Shown here: positions 3,387-21,989 of the stretch, piece by piece | Position numbering within the stretch: position 1 is the stretch's first letter | Layout of the letters: every line of letters starts with the position of its first letter | Assembly (NCBI GenBank): GCA_020851035.1 | Contig: JADZDM010000012.1 | Span: 62,001-126,000 of the forward strand | Direction: 5' to 3' | Source: Gemmatimonadaceae bacterium | GTDB lineage: Bacteria > Gemmatimonadota > Gemmatimonadetes > Gemmatimonadales > Gemmatimonadaceae | Length of the DNA stretch: 64,000 nucleotides | Made by a program: the position numbers and the translations under genes | Notes under the pieces: generated by a model | What the model was told of the DNA's origin: nothing | The model's database searches: none | Seen by the model: the letters and a program-made list of their open reading frames with translations, nothing else

Positions 3387-6077
3387 ATGGACACCCACGC
3401 CCCCCATACGGTGGTGGTGGTGTCCCACACGCACTGGGACCGCGAGTGGTACCACCCCCTCGGCCGGATGCAGCAGCGGCTGGCCGCCCTCGTCGATGCG
3501 TTGCTGGACGACCGCGACGGGCTGCCCTTCCTGCTGGACGGGCAGGCCATCGTGCTCGACGACTACCGCGCGATGCGCCCCGAACGTGCGGAGCACCTGA
3601 GCGCCGCCCTCCGGGCCGGTGAGATCGAGGCCGGGCCCTGGTACGTGCTCCCGGACCTGCTCCTGCCCGGCGGAGAGGCGCTCGTCCGGAACCTGCTCGA
3701 GGGCTCCCGGACCGTCCGCGAGGCCGGGGGGGCACCTCCGCCCGTCCTCTACTCCCCGGACGCCTTCGGGCACAGCGGCGCAGGACCGGTGCTCGCCCAC
3801 GGCTTCGGCCTCGACACGGCGATCGTGTGGCGGGGCTTCGGCGGTCCCGAGCACCCGGATGGCACCGTCGCCTGGTGGGCACACCCGGGCGGCGCGGGGG
3901 TGGTGCTGTACCACCTCCCGCCCTCCGGCTACGAAATCGGCGCGTCGCTCCCCGTCGCCGATTCTGCCGCGAGCTTCCGCTGGCGCAGCATGCGCGACGC
4001 GGTGCTGGGGAACAATCCGCTGCGCATCGCGCTGCTGCCGAACGGGGCCGACCATCACGCCCGCCAGGAGCAGCGGCGCGCGGCGCTGGCGACGCTGGCC
4101 CGCGTCGCCGAGCCGCACGACGTGATTCCCGGGACGCTCGCCTCGTTCGCACATCGGCTGCGGCATGCGGCCACCGGGGTCGAACTGCCGGTCGTGACCG
4201 GCGAGCTGCGCGACTCGAGCGGCTGGACCTGGTCCCTCCAGGGCACCTTCGCCACCCGCGCCTACCAGAAGCGCACCAACGCGCAGGTCGAGCGCCTGCT
4301 GGTGCGCGAGGCGGAACCGTGGGCCGCGCTGGCGTGGTTCACCCGCGGCTGGCGGCAGGGCAGTGTGCGCGCCGCCTGGCGCATGCTCCTCTCGGCACAG
4401 CCACACGACACGCTCTGCGGCTGCTGCCACGACGACATCGCGCGCGCGGCCGACCAGCGATGGGCCGACGCGCGTGTGCTCGCCGAGGCGGTGCGGGAGG
4501 ATGCGCTGGGCGCCCTCGTCGGGTACGACGGCGCGCAGCAGCGGGAGCTGGAGGCGAACTGGCGCCCCACGCTGGTGCTGCGCAATCCGGCCGCACGGGC
4601 ACGCGGCGGCGTGGCCCGCCTGCGCCTGGTGGATGCCGTGATCGCGGATCCCGTCGGTCCCGGCAGCGCCGCGCGGTCGGGAGCACGGGTGAATCCGCCC
4701 GCAGCGCCGATCGGCTGGTCGGGTGACGAGCACCTGCAGCTCGTGCAGCGCACGCGGCAGTTCGATCGCGTCGAGTCGTCGCAGCACTACCCGCGGAACG
4801 CCGTCGTGCGGGTGACCGAGGTGCTGGCCTGGGTGCCGCCGGTGCACGGCTACGGCGTGCAGCCGGTGATGCTCGCCGAGCTCTCCGCCCTCGTGCAGGC
4901 CACGCCCGTGAAGTCGCGCGTGCGGGCTTCCGACACCGAGTTGAGCAGTGCGGCGTGGCGCATCAGCTCCACGATGCAGGGACTCGTCGCGACGCACCTC
5001 GGCACCGGGGCGCGCGTGAACGCCGTGGGCTGGCTGGAGAGCACCACCGATGCCGGCGACACCTACACGCCGTCCCTGCGTGGGGCACCGGTCGTGTCGC
5101 ACTGGTCGGCGCCGAAGATGCAGGTGCGCGGTCCGCTTCGGGTGGAATGGGAGCTGGCGGCAGCATTCGAGCGACCGGCGACAGCGATCGCGCCGGCCAC
5201 CGATCCGGTCGCCCGCGACCTGCCCTCGCGTGAGGCGGCCGAGGTGATGGTCACGGCGGGCGTCGCGCTCCAGGCGGGGGCGGAGTGGATCGAGGTCTCG
5301 ATCCGGGGCGACAACCGGGCGGGGGATCATCGCCTGCGCTGGATCCTCCCGCTCCCGGGCAGCATCCACACCGATCGCGTCATCGCCGATGCGGCGTTCG
5401 GTGCGATCGAGCGGCGGCATGTGGACCGCGATCCGCGCGAGTGGAGCCCTGAGCAGCGCCTGCCGACGGCGCCGCTCCATCGCTGGCTCCACCTCACGGG
5501 CGAGGCGTACGGACTGGGCATCGTGAGCGATGGGCTGGCCGAGTACGAGCTGCTGCCCGGCGGGCACCTCGCGATCACGCTGCTGCGCGCGGTCGGCGAA
5601 CTCTCGCGACGCGATGTCGTCGAGCGGCCCGGGCATGCCGGCTGGCCGCTGCCGACGCCGATGGCGCAGTGCCGCGGCCCATTCGAGGCGCGCTTCGCGA
5701 TCGTGATCCTCCCCGCCGACCGCGATGCCGCGCAGGCGATGCTCGAGGCCACGGCCGACGACGTGCTGCACCCGATCACCGGTGACACGCTGCGCGGCGT
5801 GGGCACGCTGCTGCATGCCTGCGAGGGGCTGACCCTGGAGGGGAAGGGGCTCGCCTTCAGTGCCGCGCGGCGCAGCGAAGATGGCCAGTGGCTCGTGCTG
5901 CGCTGCATCAACCAGTGTGATGCCGCCGTGCGCGGTGTGTGGCACCTCCCGCGCGCGGCATCCGAAGTGCGCCTCTCCCGGCTCGACGAGACGCCGGGCA
6001 TCGCGCTCACCGGCACCGGCAGCCGGATCCGGTTCGAGGCGCCACCGAACGGTGTCGTGACCCTGCTCGTGCGCTGA
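3387..6077 (+). CDS. Glycoside hydrolase family 38 alpha-mannosidase-like
   Basis: An 896-residue retaining alpha-mannosidase-type hydrolase, probably acting on imported mannosides or mannosylglycerate-like compounds. The N-terminal catalytic domain opens with HTHWDREW, whose H16 and D18 bind the zinc, and the nucleophile is D125 in SPDAFGHSG. AQPHDTLCGCCHDD near residue 335 corresponds to the GH38 helical-bundle motif. The second half is the beta-sandwich GH38 C-terminal region. No signal peptide is visible, so it should be cytoplasmic. The ATG at 3387 precedes the catalytic motif closely; a GTG at 3345 is an alternative. The exact substrate is not decidable from sequence. It points towards a convergent membrane-protein and permease operon. 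Confidence 0.85.
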   Translation: MDTHAPHTVVVVSHTHWDREWYHPLGRMQQRLAALVDALLDDRDGLPFLLDGQAIVLDDYRAMRPERAEHLSAALRAGEIEAGPWYVLPDLLLPGGEALVRNLLEGSRTVREAGGAPPPVLYSPDAFGHSGAGPVLAHGFGLDTAIVWRGFGGPEHPDGTVAWWAHPGGAGVVLYHLPPSGYEIGASLPVADSAASFRWRSMRDAVLGNNPLRIALLPNGADHHARQEQRRAALATLARVAEPHDVIPGTLASFAHRLRHAATGVELPVVTGELRDSSGWTWSLQGTFATRAYQKRTNAQVERLLVREAEPWAALAWFTRGWRQGSVRAAWRMLLSAQPHDTLCGCCHDDIARAADQRWADARVLAEAVREDALGALVGYDGAQQRELEANWRPTLVLRNPAARARGGVARLRLVDAVIADPVGPGSAARSGARVNPPAAPIGWSGDEHLQLVQRTRQFDRVESSQHYPRNAVVRVTEVLAWVPPVHGYGVQPVMLAELSALVQATPVKSRVRASDTELSSAAWRISSTMQGLVATHLGTGARVNAVGWLESTTDAGDTYTPSLRGAPVVSHWSAPKMQVRGPLRVEWELAAAFERPATAIAPATDPVARDLPSREAAEVMVTAGVALQAGAEWIEVSIRGDNRAGDHRLRWILPLPGSIHTDRVIADAAFGAIERRHVDRDPREWSPEQRLPTAPLHRWLHLTGEAYGLGIVSDGLAEYELLPGGHLAITLLRAVGELSRRDVVERPGHAGWPLPTPMAQCRGPFEARFAIVILPADRDAAQAMLEATADDVLHPITGDTLRGVGTLLHACEGLTLEGKGLAFSAARRSEDGQWLVLRCINQCDAAVRGVWHLPRAASEVRLSRLDETPGIALTGTGSRIRFEAPPNGVVTLLVR

Positions 6078-6108: not shown

Positions 6109-6570
6109 TCAAACGACCGCGATGTCCTCTGTGCGGAGCAGGCGCGCGACCGCACCGAGACGCAGCAGGAACCCGGTGGCCGCCAGCGACTGCAGCAGCA
6201 GCGCCGGCACGAGCAGCCCGGGGACGAGGATGGCGAGCCGGCTCACGCCGTACAGCACCACGAAGCCCAGCACGACCCCGCGCGGCGGTGGCACGTGGTG
6301 CGCCGCTGTGGCGGCGGTCGCGGAGTGCCAGACATGGTGCAGGATGCCGAAGCTCGCCACCGCGCCGAGGCCCGGCACCACCAGCAGCCAGAGTCCCAGG
6401 GGATTGCACATCCGCTCCGGGCCGGGGATGTGCATCGCCATGCGACGCAGCGCGAGGCAGAAGGCCACCTGCGCCGACAGGTAGGCCACCACGAACACCA
6501 GCGCGGCGGCATCGAACGTCGCATGCCACGGCAGCAGGGTCAGGGCGAACGCGCGGAGGCTGTCGGCCAT
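6109..6570 (-). CDS. Small integral membrane protein of unknown function
   Basis: I do not recognise this 153-residue protein. It has three or four hydrophobic segments, near residues 18-42, 57-80 and 97-135, separated by short basic loops (e.g. LRRMAMHIPGPERM). It is the last gene of a minus-strand group after two ABC permeases, starting 32 bases past the stop of the second, so it is probably transcribed with them. It could be a transport accessory protein, but nothing in the sequence proves this. The start at ATG 6570 is tentative, because codons further upstream are also in frame and no strong ribosome site is visible. Confidence 0.6.
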   Translation of the reverse strand: MADSLRAFALTLLPWHATFDAAALVFVVAYLSAQVAFCLALRRMAMHIPGPERMCNPLGLWLLVVPGLGAVASFGILHHVWHSATAATAAHHVPPPRGVVLGFVVLYGVSRLAILVPGLLVPALLLQSLAATGFLLRLGAVARLLRTEDIAVV

Positions 6571-6602
6571 GCTGAACGCTAGCACCCGGGGCAGGGCGTG
6601 CG

Positions 6603-7439
6603 TCACCCCGCCGCCGAACGCCCCGCCGCACGCGCCTGCAGCCAGTCGCCGACGAGGGTCGCCGCCGTCACCGTCGCCACCACCGCCAGCCCCGGCGCCA
6701 GCGCCACCCACGGTGCCGTCACGAGGTGCTCGCGCCCCCCGGCGATCATGTTGCCCCAGCTCGGCGCCGGCGGCTGCACGCCGAGCCCGAGGAAGCTGAG
6801 GCCACTCTCCAGCAGGATCGCGTTGCCGATGCCGAGCGTCGTGGCCACGAGCGCCGGCGCGACCGCGTTCGGGATCACGTGCCGTGTGAGCGTCCGCCAC
6901 GATGACGCGCCGAGCACCGTGGCCGACGCCACGAAGTCGCGCCCCGCCAGGCCCAGTACCTCGGCGCGCACCAGCCGCGCCACGCCCATCCAGCCGGTGA
7001 GCGCCAGCACGGTCACCAGCGTCGGGATCCCCGGTCGCCAGAGCGCGGCACAGGCCAGCAGCAGCACCAGCCGCGGGATCGCCTGCAGTGTGTCGGAGGC
7101 GGAGGTGATCACGGTGTCGGCCACGCCGGCCCTCCACCCGGCCACCGCACCGAGCACGGTGCCGACCACGCCGCTCAACACCGCGCCGGCCACACCCACC
7201 AGCAGCGACAGGCGGCCGGCGAGCAGCAGCCGTCCGAGCACGTCACGACCGAAGGCGTCGGTGCCGAAGAGGTGCCACCCGCCGGCGTCCGCCGTCAGCG
7301 GCGCGCGGAACCGCAGCGACAGCACGTCGCCGACTGCGGTGGGGTCCCGCTGCAGCAGCGGGCCCAGCGTGCACGCCAGCGTCAGCACGGCCAGCACGAC
7401 CAGTGACACGCGGACGCGGAACGGGATTCCGACGCTCAT
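6603..7439 (-). CDS. ABC transporter permease, DppC/OppC type
   Basis: A 278-residue inner-membrane permease of the peptide/nickel/oligosaccharide importer class. The N-terminal helix is followed by HLFGTDAFGRDVLGRLLLAGR, the hallmark region of DppC-type subunits. Near residue 190 lies the EAA-like loop that contacts the ATPase (ATVLGASSWRTLTRHVIPN), and near residue 230 GNAILLESGLSFLGLGVQPP. The start overlaps the stop of the partner permease by ATGA, so the two are translationally coupled. No ATPase gene of this transporter lies in the window. The substrate may be a peptide or an oligosaccharide; the neighbouring hydrolase and lyase favour the latter. Confidence 0.9.
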   Translation of the reverse strand: MSVGIPFRVRVSLVVLAVLTLACTLGPLLQRDPTAVGDVLSLRFRAPLTADAGGWHLFGTDAFGRDVLGRLLLAGRLSLLVGVAGAVLSGVVGTVLGAVAGWRAGVADTVITSASDTLQAIPRLVLLLACAALWRPGIPTLVTVLALTGWMGVARLVRAEVLGLAGRDFVASATVLGASSWRTLTRHVIPNAVAPALVATTLGIGNAILLESGLSFLGLGVQPPAPSWGNMIAGGREHLVTAPWVALAPGLAVVATVTAATLVGDWLQARAAGRSAAG

Positions 7440-8416
7440 GCACGCCCCCGGCGCGGGTCGAGCAGTGGCAGCAGCAGGTCGGTGAGCAGGTTCGTCATGA
7501 TCACCACTGCGGCATACAGCAGCGTCACCGCGAGGATCACGGGATGGTCGCGCTGCGCGACGGCACCGAGCAGCAGCCGCCCCATGCCCGGCCACGCGAA
7601 CACCCCTTCCACGAACACCGAGCCGGCCACGATGCCCGGCACCGCCAGCGCCACCAGCGCCGCGATCGACGGCAGCGCCACGCGCACGACGTGATGGCGC
7701 CACGCCGCCGTCGCCGTCACGCCCTTTGCCAGCGCCGTGCGGCGATGCTCGCCCTGGGCGGCCTCGACGATCGCGGCGCGTGCGAAGCGTGCCACGCCGG
7801 CGGCCCCGGTCAGTGTCAGCACCAGCACCGGCAGCACGGCATGACGGAACAGGTCCAGCGGCGCCGCCGAGGGATCGAGCACCCCCGGGTCACGCATCGC
7901 GAACGCCGGGAGGCGCCACGCGGGGGGCACGCCCAGTGACGAGGCGCCGACGGTGACGGCGGCGACGAACGCCAGCGAGAGCCAGAAGGTCGGCGCGGAG
8001 TAGAGCGTCGTGCTCAGGATCGTGAGCCCCGTGTCGACGCCGCTCCCGGCGCGGCGCGCCTGTGTGCTGCCCACCAGCACGCCCAGCAGCACCGTCAGCG
8101 TGAGCGAGGCGGCGCCAAGCCCCAGCGACACCGGCAGCGCCTCGGCCAGCCGCTCCACCACCGGGCGTCCGGTGGCGAGGCTGGTCCCGAGGTCGCCCTG
8201 CGCGATATTCCCGAGCCAGCGCGCGTACTGCTGCACCAGCGGGGCATCCAGGCCAAGCTCCGTGCGCAGTCGCGCCAGCGTCGCCGCGTCCGCCTCTGGC
8301 GGCAGCAGGAGCAGCGCCGCATCACCCGGAGCCGCGTGCACCAGCGCAAACGTCAGCGTGCAGACCAGCCAGAGCAGGACGAGCGCGGTGCCGGAGCGGC
8401 GGAGCAGGTGGGCCAC
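7436..8416 (-). CDS. ABC transporter permease, DppB/OppB type
   Basis: A 326-residue permease forming the other half of the membrane channel. It begins with a helix (residues 8-28) and a periplasmic segment containing the usual RTELGLDAPLVQQYARWLGN. This is followed by GDLGTSL, which is typical of the DppB family, and by five further helices. The EAA loop lies around RTALAKGVTATAAWRHHVVR. Its start codon is only six bases from the divergent start of the substrate-binding protein. Its promoter must therefore overlap the coding sequence of the neighbour, or the two starts are more distant than assigned. Confidence 0.9.
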   Translation of the reverse strand: MAHLLRRSGTALVLLWLVCTLTFALVHAAPGDAALLLLPPEADAATLARLRTELGLDAPLVQQYARWLGNIAQGDLGTSLATGRPVVERLAEALPVSLGLGAASLTLTVLLGVLVGSTQARRAGSGVDTGLTILSTTLYSAPTFWLSLAFVAAVTVGASSLGVPPAWRLPAFAMRDPGVLDPSAAPLDLFRHAVLPVLVLTLTGAAGVARFARAAIVEAAQGEHRRTALAKGVTATAAWRHHVVRVALPSIAALVALAVPGIVAGSVFVEGVFAWPGMGRLLLGAVAQRDHPVILAVTLLYAAVVIMTNLLTDLLLPLLDPRRGRA

Positions 8417-8422
8417 GCCTCA

Positions 8423-10003
8423 ATGATCGCCCGCGGACGTGGTGCCGCCAACCGGGCGGGAAGGCTGGCCGCGGCAATGCTGCTCGCTGCCTGTGCCGGC
8501 AGCGCCCGGTCTGCCGACACCATCGTCATCGCGACCGGCACGGATCTCGAGGGAATGCAGCCGCTCACCACCGTGCATCCACTCTCGCGCCAGGTGCAGC
8601 GCTATCTCGTCTTCACGCCACTGACGCGGCTCTCGGCCACGCTCACACCGGAACCCTGGGCAGCACGGTCGTGGAGCTGGTCCGCCGACCGCACGCAGCT
8701 CGTGATGCTCGTCGACACGACCTTGCGCTGGCACGACGGGATTCACGTCACCGCCGGCGATGCACGTTTCACCCTCCAGCGCGCGCTGGATCCCGCCACC
8801 GGATACGCGCGCCGTGGCGACCTGCAGGCAATCACCCGGCTCGACTCCCGGGGGCGCGACTCACTCGTCATCACCTTCGCCCGCCCGCAGGCCGACGTAC
8901 CACTGGTGCTGGCAGAGTTGCCCGTCCTGCCGGAACACCGCCTGCACGGCGTGGCCCCGGAAGCCCTGCGACGTGACCGCTTCACTGTCGCACCCGTCGG
9001 TTCGGGCCCGTACCGCGTCGTGCAGCGTGACGCCGGCCGCCGCTGGGTGCTGCAGCGCGTGGACACCTTCCCGGCGCGGCTTGGCGGTGTCGCGGCCACG
9101 CGCACGCTGGTCGTTGCCGTGATCGACGAGGCCACCACGAAGGTGGCCGGCCTGGTGAGCGGCGCGCTCGACATCGCCGGCGTGAATCCCGCCACCGCCG
9201 CGCTGGTGCGGCGTGACCCGACGCTGCGCCTGCTGGACTACCCCACGTTCTTCAGCAACTGGCTCCTGTTCAACCCGGCCTGCGCTGTTGTCTCGGACGT
9301 GCGGGTACGTCGTGCGATCAGCCTTGCGCTCGACCGTCGCCGGATCGTGGACGCCGGCATCGGCGGGTTCGGGGTGCCGAGTGCCGCACCCAGCGCCGAT
9401 CTCGCGTCCGACACCACGCCAGCGCAGCCCGCCAGTGCCGATTCGCTGCTCGACGCGGCCGGATGGACGCGTACGGGGCAGGACACGAGACGGCGCGGCG
9501 CGGCACCGCTGGTGATCGAGATGCTGACCGTGAGCACGGGAGACAATCCCGTCGAGCAGCTCATGCAGGCCGACCTGCGCGCCCGCGGCATCGACCTCCG
9601 CATCGCCACCCGGGACATGGGTGCGCTGCTGGCGAACGCCCGCGTGCGCGCTCCGTCGCACTGCGCCGTGTACACCGGTGTCGCCGGTGATCCGTCGCGC
9701 AGTCAGCTCGGGGCGCTCTTCGATCCCGCCGCCGCCGGCGGTGCGCTGGAACTTGGTGCCGCCAGGCCCGCCGCCCTCGGCCCGTTGTTCGGCACGCTGC
9801 GGACCAGCTCCGACACCGTTGCCCACCGCGCCGCCTGGGCCGGCGTGCGGCGGATCCTCGCCGACAGCGTGCCGGGCACCGTGGTCTTCCACTCGCGCGG
9901 GGTCCAGGGACTCACGCGGCGGCTGCAGCACGTGACCATCGACCTGCGCGGTGAGCTGTACTCCGCCGCGCGCTGGACCCTCGCACCACCTGCCGACCGG
10001 TGA
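8423..10003 (+). CDS. ABC transporter substrate-binding lipoprotein, family 5
   Basis: A 526-residue extracytoplasmic solute-binding protein of the SBP family 5 (peptide/nickel/oligosaccharide) class. The N-terminus has arginines, a hydrophobic run and a lipobox-like LLAAC, so it is likely lipid-anchored after Cys cleavage. The body has the family pattern: TLRWHDGIHVTAGDARFTL near residue 105, GSGPYRV near 195, and ...VRVRRAISLALDRRRIV near 295. It is divergent from its two permeases and begins a six-gene plus-strand operon; its stop overlaps the GTG start of the lyase gene. The ligand is unknown. The gene pairing suggests that the imported compound feeds the enzymes encoded next. Confidence 0.85.
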   Translation: MIARGRGAANRAGRLAAAMLLAACAGSARSADTIVIATGTDLEGMQPLTTVHPLSRQVQRYLVFTPLTRLSATLTPEPWAARSWSWSADRTQLVMLVDTTLRWHDGIHVTAGDARFTLQRALDPATGYARRGDLQAITRLDSRGRDSLVITFARPQADVPLVLAELPVLPEHRLHGVAPEALRRDRFTVAPVGSGPYRVVQRDAGRRWVLQRVDTFPARLGGVAATRTLVVAVIDEATTKVAGLVSGALDIAGVNPATAALVRRDPTLRLLDYPTFFSNWLLFNPACAVVSDVRVRRAISLALDRRRIVDAGIGGFGVPSAAPSADLASDTTPAQPASADSLLDAAGWTRTGQDTRRRGAAPLVIEMLTVSTGDNPVEQLMQADLRARGIDLRIATRDMGALLANARVRAPSHCAVYTGVAGDPSRSQLGALFDPAAAGGALELGAARPAALGPLFGTLRTSSDTVAHRAAWAGVRRILADSVPGTVVFHSRGVQGLTRRLQHVTIDLRGELYSAARWTLAPPADR

Positions 10004-12735
10004 GCCTCTTTCTCGACCATCGAGCCCTCTGCGGGCGCCGGGAGTTCCTTCGCGATCCCGACGCGCTCGGCGGCCTCGCCGGGTCGCTGCAGCGCGAACT
10101 GCACGCGGCGCTCGACGTGCCGGTGCCGGCCGGCAAGTCCCGCCTCACGCGGCAGGGGGGGCGATGCGCGCGCTGCACGGTGCTGCTGGCGTTCGACCCG
10201 CGGCGGCCGTTCGCGCATGCGTGTCCGCAGTGTGGCACCGTGTACGACGACAGGGTGCACCACGAATGGTGGCTGATGAACGCGCACCTCTGGACCGCCG
10301 AGCAGTGCACGCGGGCGGCAGCACTGGCGTTCCTGCGCGACGACGACCTCGCCGCCCGGCGCGCCGACGCGATCCTCGAGGCGTACACCGCGCGCTACCT
10401 GCAGTGGCCCAACCGCGACAACGCACTCGGCCCCACGCGCCCGTTCTTCAGCACCTATCTCGAGTCGATCTGGCTGCTGCACCTCGCCATCGCGCTCGAC
10501 CTGCGCATGGCAGCCGCCGGTGGTGCGACGGCCCTCCACGCGGCGGCGCTCGACCGGCTCGTCGCGCCATCGTCGGCGCTGATCGCGTCGTTCGACGAGG
10601 GGCGCAGCAACCGGCAGGTCTGGCATGCTGCCGCGCTGCTCGCCTCGGCACACCTGCTCGATGACGCCGCCATGCGCGACCGCGCGGGTGCGTCGGTGGT
10701 GGCGCTGATCCGCGAGGGGCTGCACGACGATGGAAGCTGGTACGAGGGTGAGAACTACCACCTCTTCGCGCATCGCGGACTCCTCTCCGGTGTGACGCTC
10801 GCCGAGCGTGCCGGCATCGGGGTCCCGGCGGGACTGCTGGAGCGCTTCGAGCGCGGGTTCGCCGTGCCGTTCCGCACGATGCTGCCCGACGGCACGTTCC
10901 CCGCACGGCGTGACAGCCAGTACGGCGTGGCATTGCGCCAGTACCGGACGGCGGACTGGGTCGAGTGCGGCCTCGCGCGCCGTGACACGCCGCCGCTGCG
11001 CGCCGCGCTCGCCATGTTGTATGCCGACTGGCCGTCGCCGGGTGACACCGGGCGGGCCCACTCCACGGCCGACGCGGAACGCAACCAGCCAGGCCTGCGG
11101 CTCACGCGCGCCGACTGTGGCTGGCGCGCCTTGCTGCTCGCAGTGCCCGCCCTGCCGCCACTGGAGGATGCCGCGCTGCGCTCCGAACTGCTGGAGGGGC
11201 AGGGGCTTGCGGTGTTCCGACGGCGGGCTGGCGCGTTCTGGGTTGGGCTCGACTACGGCGACCCCGGCGACGGACACGGACATCCCGACCGGCTCAACGT
11301 CGTCATCGCCACCCGGCAGTCGCGCTGGCTCGACGACGTCGGCACCGGCAGCTACACCTCGCCCACGCTCGCATGGTATCGCAGCTCCCTGGCCCACAAC
11401 GCGCCGATGGTGGATGGGTGTGACCAGGGCGAGGCGCACGGCACGCTGCTCGCGCACGACGAGCAGGCTGATGCCGGCTGGGTGTCGGCGGAGTTCACGG
11501 ACCCGCGCAGCGCGGTGACCTTCGTACGAACGCTAGTCGTGCTGGACGGGTACGTCATCGACGAGCTCACCTGGACTTCGGCTCGCGACGTCGTCGTCGA
11601 CGTGCCGATGCAGGCGCAGCGCATTGCCGACCCGCGAATCACGTGGGCAGCCGCACCGTCCCATCGCACCGAGTGGCTGGTTGACCCGCAGCAGGCCGCG
11701 CTGCCGGCCGGCACTCACAGTTCCCTGGTGCTCCGCGGCCTGCCCTCGCCGGCCGGTGGCCCCGCGGATCCCGGCGCGCTGACGTTCACCTGCTCGATCT
11801 GGAGCGCCACCGACGCGCTGCTCTGGTCAGCCGGTACGATCGGCCCGCCGGCCGGCAGCGCGCATGGCCTCGTTGCCCTCCGCCAGTCCGGCCGTGCCGG
11901 TCGCAGCCTGCGCGTTTTTGCCTCCCCGGGCGCCATCGCCGATGTCGGCGTCGATGACGGTGCGATCACCGTCACCTGCGCCGACCAGTCCGTCACGACG
12001 CATCGTCGCACCGCGACCGGCTGGCGCATCAGCACCAGCCGCAATTCGGTGACAGTGCACGAATTCTCGTGCGAACTCGGCGGCGTGCGTGACCGGCCTG
12101 CCGCGCCGGCGCGGGCTACCCGCACCGCCGGTGAGTCGGTCGCCGTCGTCCGGACCTCGCGGCAGAACGTCGTGGCGATCACGCTCGGCGAGGCCCAGTA
12201 CCGCCAGACCGAAGTGCCCTGGCACCTCGCCGGACAGCCCACTGCCCAGGTCTTCGTGACCGGCCTGCAGGCGGGGATGCTCATCATCACCGTCGCGGCG
12301 CAGTTCAACCGTCCGCCGCACTTCGCGCCAGCCCGCGACGAGAATCCGCTCGACAACGAGCTCAGCGATGTGAACAGCGATGGCGTGCAGCTCCATTGGC
12401 GATCGCTGGTCGACGGCATCACCTGGAACGGGGCGCTCGCCGTGCCGGCCGGTGACATGGTCCGCCTCACCGCCGTGCACGGCAATCTCGACGGCCTCGA
12501 GGCTGCCTGGTCGCTGGAGGGGAGCACCGTGCAGGTCGTGTTCTCGCTGCCATGCCCGCCATCGGCCCCCGAGTTCAGTTTCTGCGTCTGCGTCAACGAC
12601 TGCCCGCCGGGCCGCGAGCGACGTCGCGGGCAGCTCGTGCTTGGCGGACGCGAGGGGGAGACCGCCTATCTTCGGGGAGCGCGACAGCCTCCTGACCGCG
12701 CCGTCCGCGTCCTCTTCGAACCCGAGCATCCGTGA
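10000..12735 (+). CDS. Heparinase II/III-family polysaccharide lyase-like protein
   Basis: A 911-residue protein with the two-part layout of heparinase II/III and alginate lyases: an N-terminal alpha/alpha toroid (about residues 1-400) and a C-terminal beta-sandwich (about 400-700, then a divergent tail). YEGENYHLFAHRG at 248-260 carries the Tyr-His pair expected at the active site. GDGHGHPDRLN near residue 425 is typical of the Heparinase_II_III domain. Paired CxxC motifs (CARC and CPQC, near residues 57-80) could form a zinc knuckle. There is no signal peptide, so it should be cytoplasmic, which is less common for this family. The substrate is unknown, presumably a uronate-containing oligosaccharide. 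The GTG start overlaps the upstream stop. Confidence 0.8.
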   Translation: MSLFLDHRALCGRREFLRDPDALGGLAGSLQRELHAALDVPVPAGKSRLTRQGGRCARCTVLLAFDPRRPFAHACPQCGTVYDDRVHHEWWLMNAHLWTAEQCTRAAALAFLRDDDLAARRADAILEAYTARYLQWPNRDNALGPTRPFFSTYLESIWLLHLAIALDLRMAAAGGATALHAAALDRLVAPSSALIASFDEGRSNRQVWHAAALLASAHLLDDAAMRDRAGASVVALIREGLHDDGSWYEGENYHLFAHRGLLSGVTLAERAGIGVPAGLLERFERGFAVPFRTMLPDGTFPARRDSQYGVALRQYRTADWVECGLARRDTPPLRAALAMLYADWPSPGDTGRAHSTADAERNQPGLRLTRADCGWRALLLAVPALPPLEDAALRSELLEGQGLAVFRRRAGAFWVGLDYGDPGDGHGHPDRLNVVIATRQSRWLDDVGTGSYTSPTLAWYRSSLAHNAPMVDGCDQGEAHGTLLAHDEQADAGWVSAEFTDPRSAVTFVRTLVVLDGYVIDELTWTSARDVVVDVPMQAQRIADPRITWAAAPSHRTEWLVDPQQAALPAGTHSSLVLRGLPSPAGGPADPGALTFTCSIWSATDALLWSAGTIGPPAGSAHGLVALRQSGRAGRSLRVFASPGAIADVGVDDGAITVTCADQSVTTHRRTATGWRISTSRNSVTVHEFSCELGGVRDRPAAPARATRTAGESVAVVRTSRQNVVAITLGEAQYRQTEVPWHLAGQPTAQVFVTGLQAGMLIITVAAQFNRPPHFAPARDENPLDNELSDVNSDGVQLHWRSLVDGITWNGALAVPAGDMVRLTAVHGNLDGLEAAWSLEGSTVQVVFSLPCPPSAPEFSFCVCVNDCPPGRERRRGQLVLGGREGETAYLRGARQPPDRAVRVLFEPEHP

Positions 12736-13607
12736 GCCTGCTGCGCAACATCCGCGTCGTCCTGCACGAACCGCAGGACCCCGTGAACATCGGGGGGACC
12801 GTCCGCGTGATGAAGAACATGGGGCTCGACGACCTCGTCCTGGTGCGACCGATGCGCTACGACCCCGAGAAGCTGGAGCGGATCGCGCACAACACGCGCG
12901 ACCTTGCCGGCCGCATCCGGCACGTCGACGAACTCCGGGACGCCCTCGACGACTGCGTGGCCGTCTACGCCTTCGCGGGCAAGCACCGCGCCGTCCGCTG
13001 GCCGGTGATCACGCCCCGCGAGATGGCCGCGGCGGCGCTGGAGCGCGTCCCCGACGGCCCGGTGGCGATGCTCTTCGGCCGCGAGGATCATGGCCTGCCG
13101 AACGAGGCGCTGGACCAGAGTACGGCCGTCGTCTGCATCCCGACGACCGAGCACATGTCACTCAACCTGGCGCAGGCTATCCTCGTTGGTGCCTACGAGT
13201 TACACCTCGCCGCCGGAGATGCCACGCGAATGCCGCCGCGGCGCCGGAAGGAAGGGCCGGCCTCGACGGTGGAGAATCGTGAGCTCACCATCCAGCGCAT
13301 CCATCGCGCCCTGGACCTGCTCGATTTCTTCAAGACGCGGAACCCCGAACACGTGATGCGCGCAGTCCGCTCCCTGGTCTCGCGTGCCGAACCGGCCACC
13401 CGCGAGATGGAGCTCGTCAAGTCGATGGCGATCGAGGTCGAGCGCACGCTGGAGCGCGAGACGCGCCGATCGTTCAAGGCGGCCCTCGCCGGCGACATGT
13501 ACGAGCCCCCGTCGAGCGGCATTCCGGGAATTCCCGTCGGCTCCGACGCGGACGCAGACCGTGGCGGAAGCGAGGACACCACCGGAGAGCCGGACGGCGG
13601 GGCATGA
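12732..13607 (+). CDS. SpoU/TrmJ-like RNA 2'-O-methyltransferase
   Basis: A 291-residue SPOUT-class methyltransferase that probably 2'-O-methylates tRNA, or less likely rRNA, with S-adenosylmethionine. All three SpoU motifs are present: PVNIGGTVRVMKNMG near residue 18, MLFGREDHGLPNEAL near 116 with the knot glutamate, and IPTTEHMSLNLAQA near 138. The C-terminal 120 residues include a conserved-looking helical part (ENRELTIQRIHRALDLLDFF) as in TrmJ, and then an unstructured acidic tail. It is sandwiched by GTGA and ATGA overlaps between a lyase and an aminotransferase, an odd place for an RNA-modification gene. TrmJ is the best guess for its subfamily, not proven. Confidence 0.85.
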   Translation: MSLLRNIRVVLHEPQDPVNIGGTVRVMKNMGLDDLVLVRPMRYDPEKLERIAHNTRDLAGRIRHVDELRDALDDCVAVYAFAGKHRAVRWPVITPREMAAAALERVPDGPVAMLFGREDHGLPNEALDQSTAVVCIPTTEHMSLNLAQAILVGAYELHLAAGDATRMPPRRRKEGPASTVENRELTIQRIHRALDLLDFFKTRNPEHVMRAVRSLVSRAEPATREMELVKSMAIEVERTLERETRRSFKAALAGDMYEPPSSGIPGIPVGSDADADRGGSEDTTGEPDGGA

Positions 13608-14773
13608 CGCCCGACTGGCGCGCGCGCGCCACTGCCGTCATCCCCGGTGGCAGTTCCACCGGCAGCAAGCGCCCCGCCAGCCTGTTCGGGCCGGCGCACG
13701 AGGGTCCGACCCACCTCACCGAGGCCCGCGGCTGCCGCATCCGCACCGCGGGCGGCGACTGGCTCATCGACCTCACCTCCGCCCTCGGCGCGGTGGCGCT
13801 CGGCTACGCCGATCCCGGGGTCTCCGACGCCGTGGCCGTCGCGGCACGGCGTGGGCCGGTCGCCGGCCTCTCGTATGTGGACGAGGTGACCCTCGCGGAA
13901 CGCCTGTGCGGGCGCATCGCGTCGGCCGAGCAGGTGCGCTTCCTCAAGACCGGCGCCGAGGCGTGTGCCGCCGCCATCCGCATCGCGCGGACACACACCG
14001 GACGCGACCGGGTCCTTGGCAGCGGCTATTTCGGCTGGCTCGACTGGTGGTCCGACTCCGCCGGCGTACCGGTCGGTGCACATGCCGATTACATGCCGCT
14101 GCCCTTCAATGACCGGGCAGCCTGGCACGACGCCTTCGCGAGGCATGCCGACCGGGTGGCCGCCGTGATCGTCGAGCCGATCGTCGAGACGATGGCGGAT
14201 CCGGACTGGCTCGGTGACCTCCGCGCGCACTGCGACCGGCTGGGCGCGGTCCTGATCTTCGACGAGGTGAAGACCGGATTCCGGATCGATCCCGGTGGCG
14301 CGCAGGCCGGGCTCGGTGTGGCGCCGGACCTGACCGTGATCGGCAAGGCGCTGGCCAACGGCTATCCGCTCGCCGCGGTGCTGGGACGTGCGGAGGTGAT
14401 GGCGGCCACCGAACGCACGTGGATCTCGAGCACACTGGCCACGGAGCTGACCGCACTCGCTGCGGCGCACGCTGTGCTCGACCGGCACGACGCACTCCCC
14501 GTGTGTGCCACGCTCGCGGACACCGGACGGGCGTTGCGGGAGGTCATCGCACGGGCGGCGCAGGATGCCGGTCGCGAACTCCGGACCGTCGGGCACGACG
14601 CGATGTTCATCATCCGCTGGCCGGACCAGGACACCGAGGATCGCACGCTGGCGGCGCTGCGCACGGCCGGCGTGCTGGCGAAGCGTGGGCCGTACCAGTT
14701 CGCGACCACTGCCATGCTCCCCGCCGACGTCGCCGAAGTCGGCGAGGCGTTCCACCGCGCGCTCACCCAGTGA
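13604..14773 (+). CDS. Class III aminotransferase, glutamate-1-semialdehyde-aminomutase-like
   Basis: A 389-residue PLP-dependent fold-type I enzyme. The order of motifs fits class III aminotransferases: GGSSTGSKRP near residue 12, FLKTGAEACAAAIRIAR near 116 (phosphate binding), EPIVET near 190, IFDEVKTGFR near 222, and the Schiff-base lysine K248 in VIGKALANGYPLAAVLG. It resembles the HemL-like subgroup but is shorter (HemL is about 430 residues) and has no haem-gene neighbours. It is therefore more likely a catabolic amino-sugar or amino-acid aminotransferase. It overlaps the methyltransferase gene (ATGA) and leads straight into two amidohydrolase genes. Confidence 0.85.
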   Translation: MTPDWRARATAVIPGGSSTGSKRPASLFGPAHEGPTHLTEARGCRIRTAGGDWLIDLTSALGAVALGYADPGVSDAVAVAARRGPVAGLSYVDEVTLAERLCGRIASAEQVRFLKTGAEACAAAIRIARTHTGRDRVLGSGYFGWLDWWSDSAGVPVGAHADYMPLPFNDRAAWHDAFARHADRVAAVIVEPIVETMADPDWLGDLRAHCDRLGAVLIFDEVKTGFRIDPGGAQAGLGVAPDLTVIGKALANGYPLAAVLGRAEVMAATERTWISSTLATELTALAAAHAVLDRHDALPVCATLADTGRALREVIARAAQDAGRELRTVGHDAMFIIRWPDQDTEDRTLAALRTAGVLAKRGPYQFATTAMLPADVAEVGEAFHRALTQ

Positions 14774-14775
14774 TC

Positions 14776-15600
14776 ATGGCACCTCGTCACCTCATCGACG
14801 CGCACGCGCACTTCCACTGGGCGGGTAGCCGGGCCGACTTCGCACGGTACAACGACTCGCGCCTCCATGCCGGCGAGGTGATGGGGATCACCTGCCATGT
14901 CGCGTCGATCCTCGGCAGCTGGGGGCGCAATTCCCCGACCTATTTCGCGTCGCCCACCGACGTCGTGGCGGGCAACGACGCCATGTATGCCATCGCCGCT
15001 GCGGAGCCTGGCCGCGTGCGGGCGTTCGTGCACGTGAACCCGAATCACACCGCACATGCGCTGGCGGAGATCGCGCGGGGGGTGAGGGCGGGAGCCATCG
15101 GCGTGAAGCTGAGTGCCAGCCGGCGCGCCGATGATGCACTCGTCGATGCGGTGGCGACGGCGGCGGCAGCGCACGGCCTGCCGGTGCTCCATCACATCTG
15201 GCAGCACCGCCAGCGCGAGTGGGGCGGCCAGGAGGCCAGCGACGCGGTCGACCTCGTCCGCCTGGCCGTGCGCCATCCGCGGACGAACTTCATCCTCGCT
15301 CACATCGGGGGCGGCGGTGACTGGGCCCACACCATCGAGGTGATCCGCGGCGTGCCGAATGTCTACCCCGACACCAGCGGCAGCGGCGTCGATCGCGGCA
15401 TGCTCGACGCGTACCTCGCGGCGATCGGGCCCCAGCGCCTGCTCTGGGCGGCGGACCTCACGCTGTGCACCGGGCTGGCCAAGCTGCAGGCGCTCGAGGT
15501 GATCGGGATGCCGCAGGCGGATCTCGACGACGTCTGCTGGCGGAACGCCGTGCGGATCTTCCCGGCGGGCAGCTTCGGGCTCGCAGGAGGCACGCCATGA
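14776..15600 (+). CDS. Amidohydrolase-family protein with metal-site HxH
   Basis: A 274-residue TIM-barrel protein of the amidohydrolase-2 (COG2159-like) group, which includes decarboxylases, lactonases and hydrolases. The N-terminal LIDAHAHFHW has the HxH metal pair, LHHIWQH near residue 138 and ILAHIGGGGDW near 175 supply further histidines, and WAADLTL near 225 supplies the aspartate. A likely metal-dependent enzyme, therefore, of unknown reaction. The ATG at 14776 is used; a GTG at 14770 overlapping the aminotransferase stop is an in-frame alternative. Its stop overlaps the start of a second protein of the same fold. Confidence 0.75.
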   Translation: MAPRHLIDAHAHFHWAGSRADFARYNDSRLHAGEVMGITCHVASILGSWGRNSPTYFASPTDVVAGNDAMYAIAAAEPGRVRAFVHVNPNHTAHALAEIARGVRAGAIGVKLSASRRADDALVDAVATAAAAHGLPVLHHIWQHRQREWGGQEASDAVDLVRLAVRHPRTNFILAHIGGGGDWAHTIEVIRGVPNVYPDTSGSGVDRGMLDAYLAAIGPQRLLWAADLTLCTGLAKLQALEVIGMPQADLDDVCWRNAVRIFPAGSFGLAGGTP

Positions 15601-16400
15601 CGCCGGTGCACTTCCCGGTCGACGTGAGTGCCTGGATCGGGGCCTACCCGTTCCGCGAGCTGCCGCATCCCGACGCCGAGGTCCTGGTGCGGGTGCTGGC
15701 GCGCGAGGGGATTGCGCGGGCGTGGGTCGGGGCGCTGCCCGCGGTGTGGCATCGCGACCCGGGCCCGTCGAACGCCTGGTTGTACGCCCAGCTGGCACCA
15801 TACGACGGTCTCCTCCTCCCGTCGCCCACCATCCGGCCGGACTGGCCCGGGTGGCAGGGCGGGCTCGATGACGCGGTGCGGCGCGGGGCACCCTCGGTGC
15901 GCAGCTACCCGATGCAGCTCGGCATCGGGGCAGGGGCACCGGCGCTGGCGCAGCTCGCGGTGGCCTGTGCGGACCGGGGCCTCGCACTCCAGCTGACGGT
16001 GCGGTTCGAGGACCTCCGGCAGCGTCACCCCATGGATTCTGCGGGTGACCTCACGGCCGCGCACGTGCGGGCGATCGTGCGCGCCGATGCGCGGGTGCAG
16101 GTGGTGGTGAGCGGCGCGGGCCGTGAGCTGATCGAGGAGGTGCACTGGTCGCTGACGCCGGCCGAGCAGGCGCGGTGCTTCTGGGACTGGGCGTGGGTCT
16201 GGGGGCCGCCGGAGGACCACTTCGCGCACCTGGTGGCGACCATCGGCGGTGACCGTTTCGTGTTCGGCGGCTACTGGCCGCTCCGGCTGATCCAGGCGCC
16301 GGTGGCGACCTGGCGGCTGTCGGAGGCGCAGTTGCCCGGAGTCACGATCACGTCGGGCGATGCGATCGTGGCGGAGGCGCAACGGCGGTCGGGCAAGTGA
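15597..16400 (+). CDS. Amidohydrolase-fold protein lacking the metal ligands
   Basis: A 267-residue relative of its upstream neighbour. The opening FPVDVSAWIGAYPFRELPHP aligns with the family's first strand and its G-x-[WY]-P-F-R block. The HxH metal pair is replaced by VSAW, and the later aspartate block reads FGGYWP. It therefore probably has no metal centre of its own and may be a structural or regulatory partner of the first amidohydrolase. It is the last gene of the operon (ATGA overlap), followed by a 220-base gap. The reaction and substrate are unknown. Confidence 0.7.
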   Translation: MTPVHFPVDVSAWIGAYPFRELPHPDAEVLVRVLAREGIARAWVGALPAVWHRDPGPSNAWLYAQLAPYDGLLLPSPTIRPDWPGWQGGLDDAVRRGAPSVRSYPMQLGIGAGAPALAQLAVACADRGLALQLTVRFEDLRQRHPMDSAGDLTAAHVRAIVRADARVQVVVSGAGRELIEEVHWSLTPAEQARCFWDWAWVWGPPEDHFAHLVATIGGDRFVFGGYWPLRLIQAPVATWRLSEAQLPGVTITSGDAIVAEAQRRSGK

Positions 16401-16620: not shown

Positions 16621-17334
16621 ATGACGCAGCGGAAGAAGTGGGCAGTGATTCCGGGGTTCCTCGTCGTTGCCGCCATCGCGGCCGGCCTCTCGGCCTGGAG
16701 CGGCGCGACCGCACGCCAGGCTGACGCGGCGCAGGCCCCGGGCGCCGCCAACCCCCTCGCCTATCCCACGTTCTCGGGCCCGAGCGGCTTGAACCTCGAT
16801 GGGGTGCGCAACAACACCCAGGCCCAGGCCCTCCCCAAGACCACCGGGGACTCCGGCCTCAAGCTCGACCCGGCCAAGGGGCCGTGGGCCTACTCCGGCG
16901 CCAGTTCGCCACAGAACTATTCCCCGGAACAGCCGGTGAAGTTCCCCCACCCGCAGCACGTGCAGAAGCTCGGCATGAACTGCACCTACTGCCATTTCTC
17001 GGCCGGCCGCGCGCAGGACCCCGGACTCCCGTCGGTCTCCACCTGCATGGGGTGCCACACCCTCGTCGCCACCGGCAAGCCCGAGATCAAGAAGCTCGCG
17101 CAGTACTACGCCAAGGGGCAGCCGGTGCCGTGGCAGCGCGTGCACAAGGTGCCGGAGTACGTGCACTTCCCGCACTCCCGCCACGCGAACAGCGGTGTCA
17201 CCTGCCAGACCTGCCACGGCGAGGTCCAGAAGATGACGCAGGTCTTCCAGTACTCCTCGCTCAACATGGGCTGGTGCGTGAACTGTCATGTCGAGCGCAA
17301 GGCGCGGTATGACTGCAGCACCTGCCACTACTAG
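16621..17334 (+). CDS. actA: Alternative complex III subunit ActA, pentahaem cytochrome c
   Basis: Membrane-anchored multihaem cytochrome of alternative complex III, the quinol:electron-acceptor oxidoreductase that replaces the bc1 complex. The 237-residue product has a basic N-terminus and one hydrophobic segment (about residues 10-30). Five CxxCH haem sites follow in the second half: CTYCH, CMGCH, CQTCH, CVNCH and CSTCH. This number and the N-terminal anchor match ActA. It heads the act gene set, whose order is the usual A-B-C-D-E-F. The ATG has only a weak ribosome site. Confidence 0.95.
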   Translation: MTQRKKWAVIPGFLVVAAIAAGLSAWSGATARQADAAQAPGAANPLAYPTFSGPSGLNLDGVRNNTQAQALPKTTGDSGLKLDPAKGPWAYSGASSPQNYSPEQPVKFPHPQHVQKLGMNCTYCHFSAGRAQDPGLPSVSTCMGCHTLVATGKPEIKKLAQYYAKGQPVPWQRVHKVPEYVHFPHSRHANSGVTCQTCHGEVQKMTQVFQYSSLNMGWCVNCHVERKARYDCSTCHY

Positions 17335-17345
17335 CCGCCGCTCTC

Positions 17346-17370
17346 GGCGTGATGCAGCGCGCATCACGCC
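17346..17370 (+). other. Stem-loop between actA and actB
   Basis: GGCGTGATG and CATCACGCC form a perfect 9-base stem around a 7-base loop, in the 66-base gap between actA and actB. No T tract follows, so it is more likely an mRNA processing or stability element, or a weak attenuator, than a full terminator. Confidence 0.5.
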
Positions 17371-17400
17371 ATGTCGTGTTTCACGATTGAGGACTACTGC

Positions 17401-20400
17401 ATGAGCACTGAGTCGGGAGCCACTGGCGTCAAGCGCCGCGACTTCCTCAAGGTCCTGGGTGTCACCACGGCGGCCACCACCGTCACCGGGTGCAACACGG
17501 ATTACGTGCGGAAGCTGATCCCGTACGTGGCCAGCCCGGATGCCACCGTCCCTGGCGTGTCGAACTACTTCGCCAGCACCTGCCGCGAGTGTGCCGTGTC
17601 GTGCGGCATCCTGGTGGAGACGCGTGACGGCCGGGCCCTCAAGGTCGAGGGGAACCCGAACACCGCCATCAACCGCGGCGCCCTCTGCGCCAAGGGACAG
17701 GCGGCGCTCCAGGGCCTCTACAACCCCGACCGCTTCCGCGGCCCGATGGCACGCAAGAACGGACAGCTGACCGCCATCACCTGGGACGAGGCGCTGCAGA
17801 CGCTCGCCACCAGGCTCGGTGAGGTGCGCAGCAAGGGGCAGGCCGCCAGTGCGGTGTTCATCAACCAGCACGAGATCGGCAGCTTCCCCGCCTTCCTCGA
17901 TGGCTGGCTGGCCTCCTATGGCATGCCGGCCCACATCAGCTACGACGCCGACGCGCCGCACGCCGCGATCGCCGCACACAAGGCCGCCTACGGCGTGGCC
18001 TGGCCGACCTTCGACTTCGACGCCGCCACGCTGGTCGTGAGCTTCGGTGCCGACTTCCTCGATGGGTGGGGCCCGAGCGTCCCGCTGCAGCTGGCCTGGG
18101 CCGATGCCCGCGCCAAGATCGAGGGCGCCCCGCGGGCCATCTACATCGGCGCGCGCCGGTCACTCACCGGCCTCAATGCCGACACCTGGATCCCTGCGCG
18201 TCCCGGCTCCGAGCTCGCGATCATCCAGTTCCTGCGCGGCAGCAAGTCGGTCGCGGACGCAGCCAGCGCCTCCGACGTCTCCGCGGCGACGCTCGAGGAG
18301 CTGAAGGCCGAGATCACGGGCGCCAGGCGCTCGCTGCTCCTCGCCGGTGGCAACGCCGCTGACTCCGCCGCGGTCGCGGTCGAGGTGGCGGAGTACAACA
18401 AGGCACTCGGCAACGTCGGCACGAGCATCAAGCCCGCGTCGCCGCTCGGCATCTACCAGCGCCTCGACGTGCCGGCCGCCGTCTACAACGTGGCCGAGCG
18501 CATGAATGCCGGCGCGGTGCCGGTGCTCTTCGTGCGCGGCGCGAACCCGGTGCACACGCTCCCGAAGTCGGTGAAGTTCGCCGAGGGGCTGGCCAAGGTC
18601 GGGTTCAAGGTCGCCTTCACCAGCGTGCCGGACGAGACCGCCGAGCTGGCAGACCTCGTGCTGCCCGATCATCACAGCCTCGAGAGCTGGGGTGATGCCG
18701 AGCCGACGCCGAACGTGCTGCACCTGCAGCAGCCGTCGATGGAGCCGGTCTTCAAGAGCCGCGCGACCGCTGACGTGCTGATGGACGTGGCGAAGAAGGA
18801 TCCGGCGCTGGCGGCGAAGTATCCACTCAAGGACTACCGGTCGTTCATCGTCGCGCGCTTCCCGGGCGGCCAGTCGGCACACACGGTGGCGCTCGCGAAG
18901 GGCGTCGCCGCCGGCGCCTCGCTGCGTGCGGCGGAACGGACGACGGGCGACTTCACCCGGAAGCCGGTGGCGGCGTTCGCCGGCGCCGGTGACTTCCATC
19001 TCGTCATCAACCCGTCGCCCACGCTCGGCACCGGTGCCGGCGCGAACAAGCCGTGGCTGATGGAGCTGCCGGACCCGGTCAGCAAGGTCGCATGGCAGTC
19101 GTGGGTCGAGATGCACCCGATGGCGTGCAAGAAGCTTGGCGTCACGCGCGGCGACCTGGTCACCATCGAGACGGCGGCTGGCAAGGTCACGCTGCCCGTC
19201 TACAACTACCTGGGGATCCGGCCCGACACGATCGCCGTCTCGCTCGGCTACGGCCACAAGAGCCAGGCGGGCCGGAAGTACGATCCGGACGCCGACCGGA
19301 AGGTGCCGTTCTTCACCGGGTACGGCCGCTACGCCGAGGGGGTCGGCATCAACGCCGTGGACCTCGTCAGTGGCGACACGGATGCCGTGGCCGGCTCGAT
19401 CGCGTACACGAGCATGAAGGCGAAGGTCACGAAGACCGGCGACAACGTCGAGCTGATCACGACCGAGGGGTCGGCCCGGCAGCATTCGCGCGGCATCGGC
19501 CAGGCGATCACGCTGGCGGCGCTCATCGAGGGCCGGACGAAGAAGGAAGGGGCAGGCGAGGGCCATGCGCCGGCCACCACCACCGAGCATCACGGTGAGA
19601 CGGCCGAGCATGGCGCGACGGGCCCGAAGGAGTGGGGTGAGCAGGAGCACGAGTTCGTCGGCGGCGCGCCGCACGAGTTCCTCCCTGGCCTCAAGAGCCC
19701 GGTGGCCAACGACGCGCAGGGTGACCTCGGCGATCCCGACTCGAAGGCGAAGGGCATGTACTCCGAGCAGCACTGGAGTGGCATGGCCAAGCGCCGCTGG
19801 GCAATGACGGTGGACCTGAGCCGCTGCACCGGCTGCTCGGCCTGCGTCACCGCCTGCTACAGCGAGAACAACATCCCGACCGTCGGCGCGAGCTGGCAGG
19901 GCCGGGCACTGTCGCCGACCGTGTGGGACACGCGCCCCGGTGCGAACATCCTGAAGGGGCGCGAGATGGCGTGGATCCGCCTCGAGCGGTACTTCGAGGG
20001 GGCTCCGGAGGCCGAGACGGTGTTCGACCCGGCGTTCGACACGCGGTTCGTGCCCATGATGTGCCAGCACTGCGGCAACGCCCCGTGCGAGCCGGTCTGC
20101 CCGGTGTACGCGACGTACCACTCGCCGGACGGCCTCAATGTGCAGGTGTACAACCGCTGCGTGGGCACGCGCTACTGCAGCAACAACTGCCCGTACAAGG
20201 TCCGCTACTACAACTGGTTCGGCTACGGCGAGCCGGAGCGTCGCCAGTACGCGTTCCCCGAGCCGATGCAGATGCAGCTCAACCCGGACGTGACCGTCCG
20301 CGGCAAGGGCGTGATGGAGAAGTGCACGTTCTGCGTGCAGCGCATCCGCGAGGCCGAGACACGCGCCGACCTCGAGCACCGTCCGCTGCAGGGCGACGAG

Positions 20401-20583
20401 TTCACCACCGCCTGTGCGCAGGCCTGTCCCTCGAAGGCGATCACCTTCGGTGACGCCGCGGATCCGGCGTGGACGGTGGCGAAGCAGGTGGAGGACGAGC
20501 GAGCGTACCACGTCTTCGAGGTGCTCAACACCTACACGGCCGTGGTCTACCTGAAGAAGATCAACCACACGGTCGAGGCCTGA
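17401..20583 (+). CDS. actB: Alternative complex III subunit ActB, molybdopterin-oxidoreductase-like iron-sulfur protein
   Basis: A 1060-residue periplasmic-side subunit carrying iron-sulfur clusters. The N-terminus has a Tat-like KRRDFLKVLG followed by a lipobox-like VTGC, so it is probably exported folded and lipid-anchored. Residues 61-98 hold a [4Fe-4S] set starting CRECAVSC. Up to about residue 700 the fold is that of molybdopterin oxidoreductases, which in ActB1 is known to have lost the cofactor. A histidine-rich linker (about 720-750) leads to the ActB2 ferredoxin domain, with clusters starting at CTGCSACVTAC (about 809) and then CQHCGNAPCEPVC, CVGTRYCSNNC and CTFCVQR. The ActB1-ActB2 fusion is usual for this complex. 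Confidence 0.95.
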   Translation: MSTESGATGVKRRDFLKVLGVTTAATTVTGCNTDYVRKLIPYVASPDATVPGVSNYFASTCRECAVSCGILVETRDGRALKVEGNPNTAINRGALCAKGQAALQGLYNPDRFRGPMARKNGQLTAITWDEALQTLATRLGEVRSKGQAASAVFINQHEIGSFPAFLDGWLASYGMPAHISYDADAPHAAIAAHKAAYGVAWPTFDFDAATLVVSFGADFLDGWGPSVPLQLAWADARAKIEGAPRAIYIGARRSLTGLNADTWIPARPGSELAIIQFLRGSKSVADAASASDVSAATLEELKAEITGARRSLLLAGGNAADSAAVAVEVAEYNKALGNVGTSIKPASPLGIYQRLDVPAAVYNVAERMNAGAVPVLFVRGANPVHTLPKSVKFAEGLAKVGFKVAFTSVPDETAELADLVLPDHHSLESWGDAEPTPNVLHLQQPSMEPVFKSRATADVLMDVAKKDPALAAKYPLKDYRSFIVARFPGGQSAHTVALAKGVAAGASLRAAERTTGDFTRKPVAAFAGAGDFHLVINPSPTLGTGAGANKPWLMELPDPVSKVAWQSWVEMHPMACKKLGVTRGDLVTIETAAGKVTLPVYNYLGIRPDTIAVSLGYGHKSQAGRKYDPDADRKVPFFTGYGRYAEGVGINAVDLVSGDTDAVAGSIAYTSMKAKVTKTGDNVELITTEGSARQHSRGIGQAITLAALIEGRTKKEGAGEGHAPATTTEHHGETAEHGATGPKEWGEQEHEFVGGAPHEFLPGLKSPVANDAQGDLGDPDSKAKGMYSEQHWSGMAKRRWAMTVDLSRCTGCSACVTACYSENNIPTVGASWQGRALSPTVWDTRPGANILKGREMAWIRLERYFEGAPEAETVFDPAFDTRFVPMMCQHCGNAPCEPVCPVYATYHSPDGLNVQVYNRCVGTRYCSNNCPYKVRYYNWFGYGEPERRQYAFPEPMQMQLNPDVTVRGKGVMEKCTFCVQRIREAETRADLEHRPLQGDEFTTACAQACPSKAITFGDAADPAWTVAKQVEDERAYHVFEVLNTYTAVVYLKKINHTVEA

Positions 20584-20588
20584 CCCGA

Positions 20589-21988
<1,400 letters not shown>

Positions 21989-21989
<1 letters not shown>

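Follow-up and report, generated by a model that had tools for sequence, protein, structure and literature searches.

Six open reading frames lie tightly packed at 8423-16400 of a 64,000-nucleotide stretch of a Gemmatimonadaceae genome (the window), and we asked whether they form a functional unit and what that unit could do. All six were present as the initial annotation had described them. Four of the joints are GTGA/ATGA overlaps of 4 bases (10000-10003, 12732-12735, 13604-13607 and 15597-15600) and the joint between the aminotransferase (AT3) and the first amidohydrolase (AH1) is a 2-base gap (14773/14776); the six genes are probably read as a single transcript. Pfam supported the family names previously given to five of the genes, and the product of the sixth (AH2), which had no Pfam match, has an amidohydrolase-like fold in its predicted structure. 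The minus strand also carries two Opp-type permease genes (6603-8416), divergent from the binding-protein gene. These had been absent from that annotation, as had the HddA-like kinase, the DapA-like aldolase and the epimerase/dehydratase described below. The genes are as follows.

3387..6077, plus strand: GH38 alpha-mannosidase-like hydrolase (Pfam Glyco_hydro_38N, 2.5e-23)
6603..7439, minus strand: Opp/Dpp-type ABC permease C (BPD_transp_1, 1.1e-25)
7436..8416, minus strand: Opp/Dpp-type ABC permease B (BPD_transp_1, 1.1e-30)
8423..10003, plus strand: SBP_bac_5 substrate-binding lipoprotein (Pfam, 4.4e-51)
10000..12735, plus strand: PL17-like heparinase II/III-fold lyase, predicted cytosolic (Hepar_II_III_C, 1.2e-10)
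12732..13607, plus strand: TrmJ-like SpoU methyltransferase (Pfam SpoU_methylase)
13604..14773, plus strand: class III aminotransferase, AT3 (Pfam Aminotran_3)
14776..15600, plus strand: AH1, metal-type Amidohydro_2 subunit (Pfam, 4.7e-26)
15597..16400, plus strand: AH2, amidohydrolase-fold partner without metal ligands (no Pfam match; predicted fold)

A small hydrophobic ORF on the minus strand (6109-6606) has no Pfam match and, in the loci compared, a relative only in a locus of the same genus (L031). Directly downstream, at 16621-21989, are the alternative complex III genes ActA, ActB and ActC, which are conserved neighbours with or without the cluster.

Conservation of the locus in Gemmatimonadota

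The lyase was present in 117 of the 298 genomes of the phylum. We compared the loci of 39 lyase-positive genomes (40 loci, three families), chosen for having the lyase, and found a common order of GH38, permeases on the opposite strand, binding protein, lyase, aminotransferase, AH1 and AH2. In 38 of these 39 genomes the lyase has the binding protein and the aminotransferase as its neighbours; the AH1-AH2 pair comes next in 34, GH38 is no more than 20 kb from the lyase in 29 (within the stretch compared), and the divergent position of the permeases is kept in most loci. Linkage outside the strain, on which the operon proposal had been made to depend, was thus found in many genera of three families, with protein identities mostly of 35-55%. 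The idea that the operon is a chance neighbourhood of one strain can draw on the unrelated SpoU gene in its middle, but it is refuted by this conservation and deserves practically no credence.

Presence of the lyase and of AH1 was correlated with a phi of 0.94 over the 298 genomes when kinship was ignored (111 shared, of 117 with lyase and 113 with AH1), and the lyase and an HddA-like kinase gave a phi of 0.90 over the same genomes, again with kinship ignored. Since presence and absence of the cluster were both seen inside genera g3 and g9, the co-occurrence does not reflect one clade alone. In one relative (G104, locus L050) all eleven genes form one uninterrupted run from which SpoU is missing: epimerase, DapA, kinase, GH38, the permeases, binding protein, lyase, aminotransferase, AH1 and AH2.

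SpoU lies between the lyase and the aminotransferase in 26 loci, and had been counted as a member of the operon. We searched for the TrmJ-like gene in 20 genomes (the window's own, 8 without the cluster and 11 with the cluster but with SpoU not inside it) and found it in 19, whether the cluster was present or absent. Six Gemmatimonadaceae without the cluster have the arrangement SpeA-SOD-DedA-SpoU-ActA-ActB-ActC at this locus, with both catabolic blocks missing; the blocks on either side of SpoU are present or absent together. Because SpoU is kept between DedA and ActA at these six empty sites, we regard this TrmJ-like tRNA methyltransferase as a housekeeping resident, and its membership in the pathway is ruled out. 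Taken together, these data show that the cluster is real and conserved in the order Gemmatimonadales and is built from known folds. The linkage in 39 genomes upholds the earlier view of a conserved, apparently catabolic unit, comprising the importer, a cytosolic lyase, the aminotransferase, the amidohydrolase pair and GH38.

Proposed import and cleavage of an oligosaccharide

We think it rather probable that the cluster serves the cytosolic breakdown of an imported oligosaccharide containing uronate and manno-sugar units, the substrate, the direction and the order of the steps being inferred.

In the first step, the lipoprotein and the two Opp-type permeases would import the oligosaccharide. 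The lipobox cysteine of the binding protein (Cys24) is kept in 36 of 37 sequences, and a simple hydropathy scan found a signal-like stretch in this protein only, not in the lyase or GH38; the scan agrees with the initial annotation in that the lyase lacks a signal peptide and, together with Pfam, confirms a GH38 without one at 3387-6077. The locus has no ATPase of its own and so does not encode a complete Opp/Dpp importer, which counts against glycan breakdown as the explanation. The sole oligo_HPY ATPase pair of the genome belongs to a separate, complete DppABCDF operon on contig C14, so the importer probably borrows DppDF.

A single-sequence search with the lyase found no solved relative, and the plasmid collection held no match to it. 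A 20-sequence profile matched the PL17 lyase 9irq at 5.3e-24 over two domains (toroid and sheet); alignments of this kind to PL17 chains cover both the toroid and the Hepar_II_III C-terminal domain that mark PL17. Among the 20 members, Hepar_II_III_C was found in all, Alginate_lyase in 8 and CBM9_1 in 3. N204, Y253, H426, H428 and Y452 are invariant in 39 of 39 lyases and align with Asn201, Tyr258, the GHGH histidines and Tyr450 of Alg17c (PDB 4nei), so that the neutralising Asn, catalytic Tyr and His of PL17 are all in place. The lyase thus resembles the PL17 oligoalginate lyases (Alg17c; AlgL17, 9irq) in profile and in catalytic residues, but differs from them at the positions of Alg17c His200 and His202, which are S203 and R205 here (Ser in 38 of 39 lyases, Arg in 39 of 39). 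It also differs in having no signal-like stretch, a CBM9-like C-terminal region, detectable in some orthologs, and an additional N-terminus in which C56, C75 and C78 point to an element resembling a zinc ribbon.

The alginate-type histidine beside the Asn is therefore missing, and we have not filed the enzyme as an alginate lyase. In a related lyase a histidine at this site has been described as key for alginate activity (PMC12088678), and substitution of Phe for His208 in a PL17 enzyme raised its glucuronan activity (PMC4765187). As both alginate-type histidines are replaced, alginate is disfavoured as the substrate, and a glucuronate-type substrate is plausible. The PL17-like profile lends inferential support to the earlier suggestion that the substrate contains uronate. 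In the second step the lyase, whose fold and catalytic residues are observed, would cleave a 4-linked uronate in the cytosol by beta-elimination. A cytosolic location had been thought unusual for the family, but cytosolic lyases behind ABC importers are already known from the alginate pit system (PMC8286568). That system likewise couples ABC import to a cytosolic lyase, whereas the present cluster has an Opp-type transporter, GH38 and a kinase, and lacks the alginate histidines.

The N, middle and C domains of GH38 all scored above their Pfam cutoffs, and its zinc-site and nucleophile residues are present (H14, H16, D18, D125 and H340, invariant in 24 sequences). Mannosylglycerate hydrolase MngB was its best NCBIfam model and was rejected at 263 bits against a cutoff of 1138. 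Intracellular GH38 enzymes act together with ABC importers in xanthan oligosaccharide pathways (PMC10881899), which makes a mannose-uronate glycan our leading guess. Those pathways (GH38 with PL8 or GH88 plus an ABC transporter) share with the cluster the ABC importer, the intracellular GH38 and uronate chemistry, but no GH88 was found in the window's genome, a heparinase-fold lyase replaces PL8, and an aminotransferase and an amidohydrolase pair are added. In the third step GH38, of which the family assignment is observed, would release an alpha-linked manno-configured sugar.

An HddA-like GHMP kinase lies between the binding protein and the lyase in families f2 and f3. In the window's genome it is unlinked, on another contig (C6:3614-4570), as it is in family f1, and this copy matched only GHMP kinase Pfam domains. 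The NCBIfam equivalog for HddA heptose kinase was rejected for the f2 and f3 members (162-182 bits against a cutoff of 600). In a fourth step the kinase, of which the co-occurrence with the lyase is observed, would phosphorylate the sugar released by GH38, probably at C1. In f1 an M20 peptidase gene neighbours the kinase gene; it was discarded as a member, being present also in genomes without the cluster.

The aminotransferase and the amidohydrolase pair

The best single-sequence PDB match of the aminotransferase was 7lld, a gentamicin C-6' aminotransferase (1.8e-43), and a profile search ranked GSA aminomutases first; its catalytic-type K248 is invariant. AT3 is not the heme-pathway HemL (GSA aminomutase), as it scored 201.8 bits against an NCBIfam cutoff of 527.3 and a separate hemL-like paralog lies on contig C25. 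Sugar-aldehyde chemistry is a lead only for this enzyme. It shares the class III fold with the gentamicin C-6' aminotransferases and GSA aminomutases, but sits in a catabolic-looking neighbourhood.

HddA-like kinases and aminotransferases of the C-6' type usually serve biosynthesis, which counts against catabolism. The cluster could instead make or recycle a modified envelope sugar: the kinase would activate a heptose-like sugar, the aminotransferase would make an amino sugar, and the lyase and GH38 would trim the self-made glycan during turnover. The kinase and the C-6' aminotransferase similarity, from families typical of biosynthesis, are what this alternative builds on. We nevertheless consider it unlikely, since no conserved glycan-synthesis gene family appeared among the clustered neighbours (part of which are annotated), no part of the cluster is more closely linked than the solute-binding importer, and the haloarchaeal homologs have importers and sulfatases around them.

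The amidohydrolases had been described as a pair, and both have amidohydrolase-like folds (mean AlphaFold pLDDT 89.4 for AH1 and 90.8 for AH2); they are not equivalent. AH1 has invariant H10, H12, K111, H140, H176 and D227, among which H10, H12, H140, H176 and D227 supply the Amidohydro_2 metal ligands. AH2, recognised by fold match only, has no conserved HxH metal ligands in 34 orthologs and carries a conserved EDxRQR motif at 138-143. The models resemble the decarboxylase clade of amidohydrolases (ACMSD and gamma-resorcylate decarboxylase; 2dvt, 4ifk), 2dvt being the nearest fold to AH1. With decarboxylases as nearest folds, the proposed ring opening finds no support and no reaction can be assigned. 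ACMSD has its site completed by an arginine from the neighbouring subunit (4ifk). Unlike that clade, AH1-AH2 is made of two different subunits, of which one has no metal ligands, and identity to the clade is about 15%. AH1 would carry the metal and its metal-free partner AH2 would shape the active site.

The pair is found well beyond this phylum. In a genome-collection scan, AH2 comes after AH1 in the majority of 80 loci (L076-L155), from Planctomycetota, Armatimonadota, Lentisphaerae, Latescibacteria, Clostridia, Bathyarchaeota and other groups, with neighbours (creatininase, ceramidase-like, Gfo/Idh) too varied to name a substrate. Only five plasmids of the plasmid collection match either half, all haloarchaeal, and there one protein of about 560 residues holds both halves, in regions with transporters, among them importers, and sulfatases. 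On the same five, at a distance of 0.4 to 27 kb, are the nearest relatives of the haloarchaeal aminotransferase, with 65-70% identity. One haloarchaeal plasmid has a further fusion (L073:10059-11684) in which the order of the halves is reversed. Four Chloroflexota loci (L103, L111, L118 and L121) have an AH1-like gene but no AH2 match; genes for a 463-residue lipoprotein-like and a 268-residue protein come after it. The widespread two-subunit AH1-AH2 is the most novel part of the cluster, and no described function for it was found in the literature searched.

This distribution bears on whether two independent modules share one site, namely an importer-lyase-GH38-kinase module for a glycan and an aminotransferase-AH1-AH2 module for a different compound. 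SpoU separates the blocks in 26 loci, AH1-AH2 occurs in many phyla without a detectable lyase relative nearby, and in three genera (L054, L056 and L059) genes identified by eye as a sensor kinase, a response regulator and PqqB/C/D/E-like genes directly follow AT3 in the place of AH1-AH2. We find such independence quite unlikely, because the genomes with the lyase and those with AH1 are almost the same, the empty sites lack both blocks, and the blocks are contiguous where SpoU is elsewhere.

A candidate route for uronate

We return to the breakdown of an imported oligosaccharide and the fate of its uronate. On contig C5 of the window's genome, a DapA-like gene is found together with an epimerase/dehydratase gene, and relatives of both stand beside the cluster in L050, L055 and L174 (of the DapA-like gene alone also in L040). 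A search of this genome (95.7% complete) for three families, KduI, GH88 and KDPG aldolase, found none of them. In a fifth step the unsaturated uronate would be processed by the aminotransferase, AH1-AH2, the epimerase/dehydratase and the DapA-type aldolase, replacing the KduI/KDPG route; the association of these genes is observed, and their chemistry and order are proposed.

Seven f2 loci (L051, L052, L053, L058, L062, L066 and L067) have DapA-like, unassigned DHO-like and MenC/NSAR-like genes after AH2 (in L066 the stretch compared covers only DapA and part of DHO). The MLE and DHO genes of f2 are absent from the window's cluster and were set aside; the MLE gene, just above the MenC cutoff, may serve menaquinone synthesis. 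PADLOC gave no match.

The catabolic interpretation draws on the conserved order, the phi values, the joint absence at six empty sites, the contiguity in G104, the PL17-like profile and triad, the GH38 active residues, the KduI, GH88 and KDPG-aldolase families not being found, the haloarchaeal plasmid context and the GH38 of xanthan pathways. More tentatively, the cluster could encode a new uronate route: after transamination, the lyase product would pass to a two-subunit amidohydrolase, one subunit metal-bearing and one metal-free, common to haloarchaea and many bacterial phyla; this is possible, though we would not yet lean on it. A keyword search of open-access papers found no published description of the cluster, and the initial annotation likewise knew of no named pathway with this set. 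If true, these proposals would help to define the diet of a widespread, poorly cultured phylum, contribute a lyase group whose active site is changed in a defined way and whose specificity is therefore likely new, and place a widespread orphan two-subunit amidohydrolase in a substrate context.
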